Part shown: positions 3,175 to 32,907 of the stretch, piece after piece
Position numbering within the stretch: position 1 is the first letter of the stretch
How the letters are laid out: each line of letters begins with the position of its first letter
NCBI RefSeq assembly: GCF_007748195.1
Contig: NZ_CP037920.1
Location: forward strand, 5,919,800-5,983,799
From: Gimesia aquarii
GTDB lineage: Bacteria; Planctomycetota; Planctomycetia; Planctomycetales; Planctomycetaceae
Length of the DNA: 64,000 bases
Direction: 5' to 3'
Program-made: the position numbers and the translations under genes
Notes under the pieces: model-generated
The model's database searches: none
What the model was told of the DNA's origin: nothing
What the model saw: the letters and a program-made list of their open reading frames with translations, nothing else

Positions 3175-4710
3175 TTAATTTGAGGGAGTTATCGTTCTGC
3201 GATAAAAAACAGGAACCGGTAAGTTACCCTCGGCCCATTCTTTTGCAGTTTTACTGTTCGTATAAGCAGATTCCACCTCAACATGGTATGTTTTCCAATT
3301 GCCTCCTAAACCGCCCTGCATCAATTGCTTAGCATTCTGTGGCTTCAGCTTAATTTTCTTACGAATTCCGACATTAGGCAAGTACCACTCAGCATAAGTA
3401 CCAGCATTTGTCTGCACTGTGACATGAAAGGTCATGGGACGAAAGGGAGAAATGTTCTGCAGCCAACCTTCTATTCGCGGAGGAGCAAGCCGAGAGTATG
3501 ATGTCGCCTTCATTTTCACGATGGCCATCTCCTGCTTATGTTTTTCCAGATGAACGGTTCTGTCGTCTAAGGGAGGGAGCTTCAGCTTCTGCTTTAGAAT
3601 CGATTGCACTAATTCGACTTTAAATTTAAGTTGCAAAGACTCCGGGCGGACTTTCATAATTTCAACAAACTCTTCGTATTGTTGCTTTGGCGATGACACT
3701 TCGAAAGGTTCTTTCGCTGAAAGATTCTGCACGTAAGTGAGATACTCCTTCGGATACTGGTTGACCAACATCCAATGCAGACCCCAGGCATGCACATAAG
3801 CATCGCCTGATAAAATGCTACCGCGAAATACTCCATTGAGGGCAACCACTTCTCCCCAATTCAACAATTTTGCGACGCCTGACATCAGAGCATAATGTGA
3901 ATTAATTCGCTCGGGACTTACATTGATTCGATCCCCTTTACCTTCAAATCCGGTTGCAATCCCCTCCATAAACCAGGTTGGAATCGGCGCAAATCGCTTC
4001 ACAACACCTCGATTGGATGTCTGTAAATGAATGGCTTCATGTAAAGGAGTTTCAAAAGAACTACATTCACTCATTCGAAGAATCAAATTGTTAGAAACGC
4101 TTGAATAATAGGCTAATACATTCTTGACACCAGCCCCAAGTGAAGTTGTTTCTTTAGCATAAGCTTCAAAATCATCATCTGATTCGAAGATGAGCATTGC
4201 CATTGGAAATTCATAATCAGTTAATTCGATGCCCATTTTTTTACTATAAGTTTCGAAGATGACTTCCACATTTTTTAAGAATCGCCCTGCTTTCTCCAGA
4301 AACGTTTTTACGCGGAGTTCTGTCCTGTCAGACCCATCCAATGGTGCAGCCAGTACAACCCCCACAAGGAATGGGCTCTGCAAATGAAATCGAAATTTTT
4401 CAGTACCAAATTTCTTTGATAACTCCTCAGACATCTCTTTCACTGTCAGAGGCCTGGGGGCTTCTTTCAGCATGCGTTTTTTGATTTTTCCCTGTGGAAC
4501 AAGACGGATAGACCCATCGGGTAGTATTAAAGCATGCAGCATCTCTCCCCGTCTCTTTCCAGATCCATAGAGCATTGCCTCAACGGTGACTGACTGGCCA
4601 GATTCATCTACATAGGTAAAGAGATCTGCCTGAAGATTCTGACTATAGAGATTGTACGAAGACACAAAAATGAAGAGGCTCAGGATATGTTTGAAAACAC
4701 GATTCAACAT
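3175..4710 (-). CDS. Secreted DUF1570-like protein with an HExxH metallopeptidase motif
   Basis: A 511-residue protein with an N-terminal signal peptide (hydrophobic ILSLFIFVSSYNLYSQ). In the middle, FETPLHEAIHLQ provides an HExxH zinc motif. About 27 residues later WFMEGIATGFE gives the downstream acidic residue expected in gluzincin peptidases. This arrangement is typical of DUF1570 proteins, which are frequent in planctomycetes. The C-terminal third has a beta-rich look. It is probably an exported metallopeptidase, or a peptidase-like protein whose activity has not been shown. The gene is 40 bases upstream of the isomerase gene on the same strand and may share its transcript. Confidence 0.7.
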   Translation of the reverse strand: MLNRVFKHILSLFIFVSSYNLYSQNLQADLFTYVDESGQSVTVEAMLYGSGKRRGEMLHALILPDGSIRLVPQGKIKKRMLKEAPRPLTVKEMSEELSKKFGTEKFRFHLQSPFLVGVVLAAPLDGSDRTELRVKTFLEKAGRFLKNVEVIFETYSKKMGIELTDYEFPMAMLIFESDDDFEAYAKETTSLGAGVKNVLAYYSSVSNNLILRMSECSSFETPLHEAIHLQTSNRGVVKRFAPIPTWFMEGIATGFEGKGDRINVSPERINSHYALMSGVAKLLNWGEVVALNGVFRGSILSGDAYVHAWGLHWMLVNQYPKEYLTYVQNLSAKEPFEVSSPKQQYEEFVEIMKVRPESLQLKFKVELVQSILKQKLKLPPLDDRTVHLEKHKQEMAIVKMKATSYSRLAPPRIEGWLQNISPFRPMTFHVTVQTNAGTYAEWYLPNVGIRKKIKLKPQNAKQLMQGGLGGNWKTYHVEVESAYTNSKTAKEWAEGNLPVPVFYRRTITPSN

Positions 4711-30408: not shown

Positions 30409-30436
30409 TTGACGCAGTTCACGAAAAGGATACGAT
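30409..30436 (+). promoter_or_regulatory. Sigma70-like promoter of the retron RNA
   Basis: TTGACG (30409-30414) and TACGAT (30431-30436) are separated by 16 bases. A start about 7-10 bases after the -10 box falls at 30443-30447, exactly where the a1 repeat of the retron RNA begins. Confidence 0.65.
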
Positions 30437-30446
30437 TTGCAGTCTT

Positions 30447-30467
30447 GATGGGCAGTGGGTCGCACAA
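30447..30467 (+). repeat. Retron a1 inverted repeat
   Basis: 21 bases pairing with 30608-30628. There are 18 Watson-Crick pairs, two G-U pairs (at 30456 and 30460) and a single G-G mismatch (30452 against 30623). The core GTCGCACAA pairs with TTGTGCGGC. Confidence 0.88.
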
Positions 30468-30473
30468 GTTCTG

Positions 30474-30506
30474 ACTCTAACTGAATCCTGACGGATCACT
30501 TAGAGT
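30474..30506 (+). other. msr hairpin 1
   Basis: ACTCTAA (30474-30480) pairs with TTAGAGT (30500-30506). Inside, TG/CA and ATCC/GGAT stack around a TGAC tetraloop with one bulged A and one C/C mismatch. Confidence 0.8.
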
Positions 30507-30507
30507 A

Positions 30508-30526
30508 CTGCGGGGATACCCCGTGG
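30508..30526 (+). other. msr hairpin 2
   Basis: CGGGG (30511-30515) pairs with CCCCG (30519-30523) over an ATA loop, extended outward by two G-U pairs and one C-G pair. Confidence 0.8.
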
Positions 30527-30552
30527 GAGAAGTATTGACCATTCTACGAAAT

Positions 30553-30596
30553 GTGAAGGGTCGCTACGATAGACTCTTATCGTAGCAACCCTTCGC
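30553..30596 (+). other. msd long hairpin
   Basis: The outer stem GTGAAGGGT (30553-30561) pairs with ACCCTTCGC (30588-30596). The inner stem GCTACGATA (30563-30571) pairs with TATCGTAGC (30578-30586). There is one C/A mismatch between them and a six-base loop GACTCT. It is the strongest hairpin in the window and the expected core of the msDNA. Confidence 0.85.
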
Positions 30597-30607
30597 CACA
30601 GGATCGG

Positions 30608-30628
30608 TTGTGCGGCCCGCTGGCCATC
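30608..30628 (+). repeat. Retron a2 inverted repeat
   Basis: The partner of a1 at 30447-30467, followed by a T-rich run (CTTTTTATTATTTTTAT) and then, 72 bases later, the reverse transcriptase start codon. Confidence 0.88.
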
Positions 30629-30699
30629 TTTTTATTATTTTTATAAAGCCATATTCCTGCTGATAATCGCAGTAAACAGAATGACCACGGGATTTTTGA

Positions 30700-31968
30700 A
30701 TGGGCTTATTTCAATTCATACGCCGGCTCCTGTTTGGTTCATCATCAGGCCGACCTGTCACTCCCACTGATTCCTATTCGAAACAGAACAAGACTCAACG
30801 TGCGTACCGAAAACCTCGATTGAAACCTTTTCGATATCGTCAAAACAGACGAACAGATACAACCGAACTCGAAGAAGTTTCATCTCCTCCTTACGAACTC
30901 GCTCGCTATGCATCTCGCACTGGTCATTATTTTGATATGGCTCAGGATACTGATTTTGAAAAACTCGATCAGTACAACTTACCTCGGTTTTGCACACCAC
31001 TGGAACTTTCCCAATGGTTGGAGTTCCCTCTCGGAAAGCTTGCATGGCTGACACACCGGTTTAATCAATTCGATCGCCCTGATGATGTCAAAGAGTCGCA
31101 CTACGTTTATCACTGGTTACCCAAACGAAATGGTTTTCGGTTGATTGAAGCACCAAGACCATTCATAAAAATAGCTCAGGAACAAATTCTAAAGGACTTA
31201 CTAAATAGAATCCCCGTTCATCCGGCTGCACACGGATTTGTTGCCGGCCATTCTTCCGTGACCAATGCATTACCTCATACCGGTAAACGCGTGGTTGTCA
31301 AATTTGATCTGGAAAATTTTTATACAAGCGTCAAATTTTCAAGGGTTGTTTCTATTTACCGTAGTATTGGCTATTGCCGCGAAGTCTCACTTTGGCTCGC
31401 ACGTTTAACAACTTCTGCCATTCCCATGAGCATGCCTTTTCCTGATGGGAGTCTGAGACCACTTTATCCTTATCTCTCTCGCCATCTTCCACAAGGAGCA
31501 CCAACATCCCCTGCACTGGCGAATCTGTCTGCATTTTCCCTGGACGTCAGGCTCTCAGGTTTAGCGCGATCGTTTGATGCAGAATACACACGCTATGCCG
31601 ACGATTTAACCTTTTCCGGTTCCGATCAATTTTTGCGTGCTCTGCGTGTCTTTATCCCACTGGTGGAGCAAATCATTCGGTCGGAACGATTTCAGGTCAA
31701 TCAATCGAAACGACGCGTATTACGAAATAACCAACAACAAAAAGTGACTGGCGTTGTTGTGAATGAACACACGAATGTGCCGCGCAAAGAATTCGATCTG
31801 TTGAAAGCGATCCTCACAAATTGCATTCGAAAGGGGCCTGCAAGCCAAAACCGGAAAGGTCACCCCGATTTCGCCAGTCATCTTCGCGGTCGCGTGGCCT
31901 ATGTTCAACAACTGAACCCAAATCGTGGCCAACGTTTACTCCAGCTTTATCAGCAAATCCGCTGGTAG
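30700..31968 (+). CDS. Retron-type reverse transcriptase
   Basis: A 422-residue RNA-directed DNA polymerase. Catalytic motifs: FDLENFY (residues 202-208, first Asp), LPQGAPTSP (263-271) and YADD (299-302). Retron-specific marks: NALPH at 189-193 fits NAxxH of region X, and VTG at 349-351 is the region Y motif used for msr RNA recognition. Segments such as HPAAHGFVAGHSSVTNA and YTRYADDLTFS look closest, from memory, to myxobacterial (Mx162-type) retron enzymes. There is no group II intron maturase or endonuclease domain. The first 130 residues are an extension: a basic, low-complexity part, then a helical domain (TPLELSQWLEFPLGKLAWLTH) common in long retron enzymes. Start ATG at 30700, weak GGGA upstream. 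No effector is fused recognisably. Confidence 0.95.
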   Translation: MGLFQFIRRLLFGSSSGRPVTPTDSYSKQNKTQRAYRKPRLKPFRYRQNRRTDTTELEEVSSPPYELARYASRTGHYFDMAQDTDFEKLDQYNLPRFCTPLELSQWLEFPLGKLAWLTHRFNQFDRPDDVKESHYVYHWLPKRNGFRLIEAPRPFIKIAQEQILKDLLNRIPVHPAAHGFVAGHSSVTNALPHTGKRVVVKFDLENFYTSVKFSRVVSIYRSIGYCREVSLWLARLTTSAIPMSMPFPDGSLRPLYPYLSRHLPQGAPTSPALANLSAFSLDVRLSGLARSFDAEYTRYADDLTFSGSDQFLRALRVFIPLVEQIIRSERFQVNQSKRRVLRNNQQQKVTGVVVNEHTNVPRKEFDLLKAILTNCIRKGPASQNRKGHPDFASHLRGRVAYVQQLNPNRGQRLLQLYQQIRW

Positions 31969-32066: not shown

Positions 32067-32103
32067 TCCCTGATTGAGGTGTTTTCGTTTCATCAGTCAG
32101 GGA
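32067..32103 (+). promoter_or_regulatory. Hairpin that could mask the ribosome-binding site of the next gene
   Basis: TCCCTGA (32067-32073) is the exact complement of TCAGGGA (32097-32103). The right arm contains the GGGAG-type Shine-Dalgarno sequence lying eight bases before the GTG start at 32113. Pairing would hide the site. Confidence 0.45.
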
Positions 32104-32112
32104 GTAAAACTC

Positions 32113-32907
32113 GTGCTATTACCATTCGATCAGTTAGGAACTATTGTGGGTGGATTTTTTCGTATCCTGTTTGCAAATCCCTACTTTAGAAACCTGTTAA
32201 AACCATTAACACGTTTCTTTATCGGGTTGATTGCGATCCCCATTTTCCATCTGATTCTCAGTAAAGTCATCCGCGTTCAAGAAATTGACGAAGAACTGGA
32301 AAAAGACCTCGAACAGTGGTTTCGTGGTTCCTTGCTCCTGCTGGCTGCGACAGCCAACATGGAAGCCGCCTTGTTTGGGTGGGTTCCTATGAGTCTCCAG
32401 GGAACTGAAGGCTGGATCTTAATGGGTTTCCGCATCATGTTGGCCATTGGTGTGATTGAAGCCATGCCCGATCAGGAACTGTTTTCGATCATTCATCCTG
32501 GTCCACCCACTTTAAAATTATCAAAAGAATACGGAATCTTTCGGGAGCTGAAAGAACAATGGCGCGCTATCCTGAAAGGGCTTGTGTGCCAACATATTAA
32601 CCGTTCCTCTCCCGTATTTGCGATCCTCTCTGCCATTGCCATTGATGCGGTAGGTTGGGTCTGTTATGGAATTGCGATTACACAGTATTTGATAATCGGC
32701 CTGGTGACTTCGCGTGATCGTGCGCTGGATGTACTCTCAGAGTTTGACCGTCAGGTGACAATTCGGCGTCGCGAACTGATTGAGGAATTTGATCTGAGCG
32801 ATAAAGAAGTCAATGCAGCAAACCGAGAGAAGTGCAAAGAAGAAGACCAGCAAGAGATAAACAACCCAACCACAGACGACCTGGATCAGTCTAAGGCGTC
32901 TGCCTGA
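32113..32907 (+). CDS. Multi-pass membrane protein of unknown function downstream of the retron
   Basis: About 264 residues. Hydrophobic helices include LTRFFIGLIAIPIFHLIL, WFRGSLLLLAATANM, ILMGFRIMLAIGVIEAM, FAILSAIAIDAVGWVCYGIA and the adjoining ITQYLIIGLV. The C-terminal 60 residues are charged and cytoplasmic in character. I recognise no family. The GTG at 32113 has a good ribosome-binding site; a TTG at 32074 would extend it by 13 residues. It lies 145 bases after the reverse transcriptase, with a possible terminator and a site-masking hairpin between. Some retrons use membrane effectors with a few helices, so it is a candidate effector, but it could equally be an unrelated chromosomal gene beside topA. 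Confidence 0.7.
   Translation: MLLPFDQLGTIVGGFFRILFANPYFRNLLKPLTRFFIGLIAIPIFHLILSKVIRVQEIDEELEKDLEQWFRGSLLLLAATANMEAALFGWVPMSLQGTEGWILMGFRIMLAIGVIEAMPDQELFSIIHPGPPTLKLSKEYGIFRELKEQWRAILKGLVCQHINRSSPVFAILSAIAIDAVGWVCYGIAITQYLIIGLVTSRDRALDVLSEFDRQVTIRRRELIEEFDLSDKEVNAANREKCKEEDQQEINNPTTDDLDQSKASA

Follow-up and report, generated by a model that had tools for sequence, protein, structure and literature searches.

A predicted retron of Gimesia aquarii whose paired RNA ends covary across the Planctomycetaceae

Described retrons and the Gimesia reverse transcriptase

Retrons are genes that make a small RNA-linked DNA, and the current view of them is mainly that of mobile anti-phage systems of the toxin/antitoxin kind with a patchy distribution. 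Retrons as such are already known, and we read the locus from Gimesia aquarii as a new variant of them. Those of the Mx162/Sa163 type (Retron-Mxa1, Retron-Sau1) are described as passed on vertically and as common in their hosts: msDNA was seen in 27 of 28 strains of myxobacteria (PMC6868368). The Gimesia retron shares with this type a reverse transcriptase (RT) with an extended N terminus. Its extension, however, consists of an amphipathic helix and a linker, unlike that of Mx162/Sa163, and its priming context is CAAG, whereas that of the Mx162 type is CAGC. The RT of a Pyxidicoccus locus is 47% identical to the Gimesia RT. The match of that locus to R1, a covariance model built from the alignment of the Gimesia-type ncRNAs, is weak (E = 0.014), and Mx162 is known here by its published description only.

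The closest solved RT is that of Ec86 (Retron-Eco1), with about 25% identity to the Gimesia RT. Ec86 recognizes its RNA via an 8-bp stem with a 3-nt loop (PMC6868368), a hairpin that is matched by stem-loop 2 of the Gimesia ncRNA. On the other hand, the Ec86 structure (7v9x) is that of a complex which includes the effector of this retron, and its RT chain, about 320 residues long, lacks the N-terminal extension of the Gimesia protein. The DRT2 and DRT9 systems also combine an RT with a structured ncRNA, as does the Gimesia locus. They were rejected as its identity: the NCBIfam Drt2 model scored 35 bits against a cut-off of 390, a ranking of PDB entries placed retron RTs far above, and the ncRNA has msr-msd anatomy. 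Searches of the open-access literature found no description of a planctomycete retron of the Gimesia kind, of a family-scale near-core retron outside the myxobacteria, or of a naturally separated retron ncRNA.

The RT gene occupies positions 30700 to 31968 (+ strand) of the window, the 64-kb stretch of the G. aquarii genome that was analysed, and encodes 422 residues. The protein consists of an N-terminal amphipathic helix (residues 3-12), a disordered linker and the RT domain, with RVT_1 as the sole Pfam domain. It carries the motifs of a retron-clade RT, namely NALPH in region X (of the NAxPH, NAxxH type), the catalytic YADD and VTG in region Y. Among solved proteins, retron RTs come closest to it, with Ec86 at the top, both by sequence and by the fold of an AlphaFold model (pLDDT 80.8). 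The top PADLOC profiles were RT_other, RT_outgroup and type XIII (E = 4e-129, 2.8e-122 and 1.3e-103); the first two outscored RT_XIII and all remaining models, so the best score did not fall to a typed retron model (I-XIII). Of the partner genes of typed systems, none was found beside the Gimesia RT. With dN/dS between 0.02 and 0.18, the RT is under purifying selection. The N-terminal helix is conserved while the linker that follows it evolves fast, a combination from which a tether to a membrane or to a partner is predicted.

The ncRNA and its paired ends

The RT gene lies 67 nt downstream of a predicted msr-msd precursor RNA (30445-30632, + strand; span of the R1 match, 208.8 bits). Rfam searches, both at the gathering threshold and by E-value, returned no family for it. 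A consensus scan placed a sigma-70-like promoter, TTGACG-N16-TACGAT, at 30409-30436 (+), ending 10 nt 5' of arm a1, and transcription is predicted to start at about 30443. The promoter block is nearly invariant in 13 relatives of the genus, in which the DNA farther upstream has diverged.

The order of the elements (a1, priming guanosine, msr hairpins, a single long msd hairpin, a2) is that of a retron, in which the msr holds one to three short hairpins and the msd one long hairpin. All elements lie on the + strand. The first msr stem-loop (30473-30506), drawn from the fold of this sequence, is variable and contributes just three pairs to the consensus model. The second (30508-30526), CUGCGGGG-AUA-CCCCGUGG, has an 8-bp stem and a 3-nt loop, is paired in 98.5% of cells over 73 sequences and is the most conserved element of the ncRNA; it is the likely RT-recognition hairpin. 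A comparable GGGG-nnA-CCCC hairpin lies upstream of RTs with 43-47% identity in bacteria outside the family. The msd hairpin (30555-30594), with 17-nt arms and a 6-nt loop, is the predicted msDNA template, with compensatory changes at all 17 of its modelled pairs in the fitted alignment of 73 homologues. It is followed by a conserved template start of the CACAGGA type (30595-30607), whose last base, the invariant G30607, is predicted to be the first one copied.

The ends of the RNA pair over 21 positions, a1 at 30447-30467 (GATGGGCAGTGGGTCGCACAA) with a2 at 30608-30628 (TTGTGCGGCCCGCTGGCCATC). A scripted re-reading reproduced exactly the 18 Watson-Crick pairs, two G-U pairs and one G-G mismatch counted in the original prediction. 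The G-U pairs are U30456-G30619 and U30460-G30615, the mismatch is G30452-G30623, and at the inner edge of the helix G30468 faces G30607. The two arms are separated by 140 nt. A scan of the window for 21-nt arms no more than 200 nt apart that form 20 or more pairs, G-U included, found a1/a2 as the sole case. The fold of 241 nt around the arms has a z-score of -8.05 and was equalled by no shuffle. The original prediction called the arms longer than the 7-12 nt often given for classical retrons, but 21 nt is not unusual, as the published range for the end pairing of retrons is about 8-30 nt (PMC6868368).

The comparison with relatives that the original prediction had proposed was run on homologous ncRNAs. 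A first, unfitted alignment of 15 sequences yielded a consensus structure in which 27 of 48 pairs showed a double change in one or more of the sequences. For a1/a2, 97.7% of the cells of this seed alignment were paired, versus 29-46% when the partner was slid by one to three columns. In a model-fitted alignment of 73 homologues, 93.7% of all cells were paired and 39 of the 48 pairs were double-changed, including compensatory changes in 15 of the 20 a1/a2 pairs. Because a fitted alignment follows the covariance model, the a1/a2 count was repeated on an unfitted MAFFT alignment of the same 73 homologues, where 93.1% of the cells in the 20 pairs were standard and 15 pairs were again double-changed. 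The paired ends of the ncRNA are thus, at the level of sequence comparison, real and conserved through matched mutations.

At the two G-U positions the 73 sequences hold UG in 31, CG in 18 and UA in 13 cases at one, and UG in 44, UA in 20 and CG in 6 at the other. This interchange indicates selection on an RNA helix, as had been proposed from the two G-U pairs in the window. A palindrome selected at the DNA level, such as a terminator, a protein site or a cruciform, or pairing by chance, has next to no probability as an explanation. The sequence is partly palindromic and R1 also matches its minus strand weakly, but G-U is the commonest state at both positions, three quarters of the pairs covary, the arms lie far apart and the slid controls fail; the covariation rules such readings out. 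The position of the G-G mismatch is C-G in 42 of the 73 homologues, U-A in 15 and G-G in 12. Since most of the family has C-G or U-A, the mismatch is a local loss peculiar to Gimesia. The outermost pair, 30447-30628, is kept in only 46 of the 73, so that the conserved helix effectively begins at 30448-30449.

G30468, at the 3' edge of a1, and G30607 are both G in 73 of 73 homologues. The former had been placed where a branching guanosine is expected, and its invariance agrees with that predicted role, which is assigned from known retrons. Its context, CAAG, differs from all the priming motifs given for validated retrons, namely TAGC, CAGA, CAGC, GAGC and ACGC (PMC6868368), and the flanking motif is in this respect unlike published ones.

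By analogy with studied retrons (PMC6868368), a mechanism can be proposed for the locus, from which we infer msDNA synthesis and the position of the branch. The promoter at 30409-30436 would transcribe the ncRNA, and its ends a1 and a2 would form a helix of about 20 bp. Bound to this RNA, probably via the hairpin of 8 bp and 3 nt at 30508-30526, the RT would take the 2'-OH of G30468 as primer to give a 2'-5' linked DNA, and would copy the template from about G30607 onward, across the msd hairpin. The product would be an RNA-linked single-stranded DNA (msDNA), probably staying bound to the RT. The a1/a2 helix would hold the primer G30468 beside the template, which would explain the selection at the RNA level. 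We put the probability that the locus is a functional retron, with a1/a2 as its primer/template helix, at about 0.92, a figure that excludes its physiological role.

Distribution, inheritance and separated ncRNAs

A genome was counted as having the RT if the score reached 410 bits, or if a fragment truncated by a contig end had 50% identity or more; for the ncRNA the cut-off was E < 1e-12. Among 170 genomes of the family, the RT was present in 107, the ncRNA in 105 and both in 104, so that the two coincide in 104 of the 108 genomes having either. One of the three RT-only genomes (G007) shows the ncRNA with filters off, and the other two hold RT fragments (query residues 186-422 and 126-422). 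An R1 match lies upstream of nearly all RTs that have sufficient flanking sequence. Both components occur in 42 of the 58 genera of Planctomycetaceae and, inside positive genera, the retron is found in 88 of 92 good genomes, usually as one copy; the good genomes without it number 42 in all. The RT scores leave a clear gap: no family orthologue scores below 410 bits, and nothing else above about 321. No orthologue was found on plasmids or phages, where the best match had about 46% identity.

The RT tree was compared with that of TopA. The two have 11 of 31 splits in common, with at most 3 in shuffles, and their distances correlate (Mantel r = 0.49, p = 0.0005). When each genus is represented by one genome, r falls to 0.28 (p = 0.06), and the congruence beyond the genus is weak. 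Absences of the retron on the TopA tree fall mostly within two clades. In one genome (G098, locus L206) the RT groups with that of G066, whereas TopA groups with mostly retron-less genera, and this retron was likely acquired by horizontal transfer. In our reading, the retron goes back to near the root of the family and has since descended mostly vertically, with losses and at least one transfer. The helix and its covariation, the class of the RT, the co-occurrence of RT and ncRNA and this pattern of inheritance are all seen in the sequences themselves.

The paired-end ncRNA adjoins the RT gene except in genus g15, where the RT is intact in all three genomes (L114, L115 and L116) and the ncRNA is on another contig. 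No R1 match was found near the three RTs, even with filters off. The separate ncRNAs (L111:2022-2193, +; L112:2054-2229, +; L113:1965-2141, -) match R1 with E of about 1e-20 and sit at an identical site in the three genomes, flanked by sulfotransferase-like and transporter-like genes. The contigs in G050 and G052 measure 48-147 kb, so the separation is not a simple assembly break. Because both parts are kept though unlinked, RT and RNA appear to act together in trans. This arrangement bears on whether the RNA could be a cis-regulatory leader of the RT gene that serves as no template. Such a leader would fit the place of the ncRNA, which most genomes have immediately before the RT gene, yet it is highly improbable given the ncRNA on a different contig in g15, the tandem ncRNA copies of one genome and the retron msr-msd anatomy.

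The tandem copies lie upstream of a single RT at locus L117 (= L073), at 3928-4084 and 4247-4403 (-); their msr parts are near-identical and their msd hairpins different. Between the g15 loci L112 and L113 the flanking DNA is 90% identical, and the msd hairpins, both of which fold long, are very different in sequence. This suggests that the sequence of the copied DNA may turn over fast.

Neighbourhood, possible roles and related elements

The genes around the RT encode a methylene-tetrahydromethanopterin dehydrogenase, a formaldehyde-activating enzyme, an ATP-grasp enzyme, an enolase-like enzyme, an M50 peptidase, topoisomerase I and a SurA-like protein; the neighbourhood is a housekeeping one. 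The commonest neighbour, which follows the RT gene immediately and in the same orientation at 22 of 55 loci, is a conserved gene for a membrane protein of 277 residues with the motif MPDQxLFxxIHPGPP (32074-32907, +), to which Pfam, NCBIfam and PADLOC assign no family. The position of this gene is what speaks for it as the effector of the retron, a role we nevertheless consider improbable. It is present in 147 of the 170 family genomes, including those of the retron-less genera g7 and g50, and it often lies far from the RT, by megabases in genomes such as G005, whereas a dedicated effector ought to track the RT. By its distribution it is a core gene of Planctomycetaceae. Neither clustering of the neighbours at the 55 loci nor Pfam revealed a dedicated effector gene or an effector domain fused to the RT, and in relatives outside the family the RT was the only gene common to more than three loci.

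An old, mostly vertically inherited retron that has no dedicated effector beside it points either to anti-phage surveillance with a distant partner or to housekeeping. In the first case, the toxic effector would be encoded elsewhere in the chromosome, or would be the N-terminal helix of the RT itself, and the RT-msDNA complex would restrain it until phage infection. Where the role of a retron has been tested, it is that of an anti-phage system resembling toxin/antitoxin pairs (PMC12548924). Moreover, the distant g15 ncRNA implies that parts of the system can act in trans, and the RT has its conserved amphipathic helix and fast-evolving linker. Defence genes of that kind, however, are usually patchy and mobile, whereas this retron occupies nearly all good genomes of positive genera, in a housekeeping neighbourhood and without having been found on plasmids or phages, and no partner gene was found. 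We regard a defence role as plausible at somewhat less than even odds. It is compatible with the identity of the locus as a retron and is a rival on the role only.

The second case, which we advance tentatively and with more doubt than confidence, is that of a domesticated, near-core housekeeping retron. Here RT and ncRNA, kept even when unlinked, would produce a structured DNA with a function in the cell that requires no toxin gene nearby, the RT being tethered to a membrane or a partner by its conserved N-terminal helix. Whichever role applies, a retron whose inheritance in 42 genera resembles that of a core gene, with no recognizable adjacent effector, contrasts with the prevailing view of these elements, and g15 adds a case in which the RNA is encoded elsewhere and neither part has been lost. 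What effector-less retrons do is an old question that becomes directly testable in culturable Gimesia or Thalassoglobus, and the Planctomycetaceae set constitutes a large natural collection of matched RT/ncRNA pairs.

Planctomycetes also have another group of retron RTs, patchy in occurrence, with about 40-50% identity and a weakly related ncRNA (L128:2305-2469 and L129:2607-2792). It has many class-level matches and sometimes shares a genome with the first retron. One related RT contains a single in-frame TAG (G443:C180:32503-33510).
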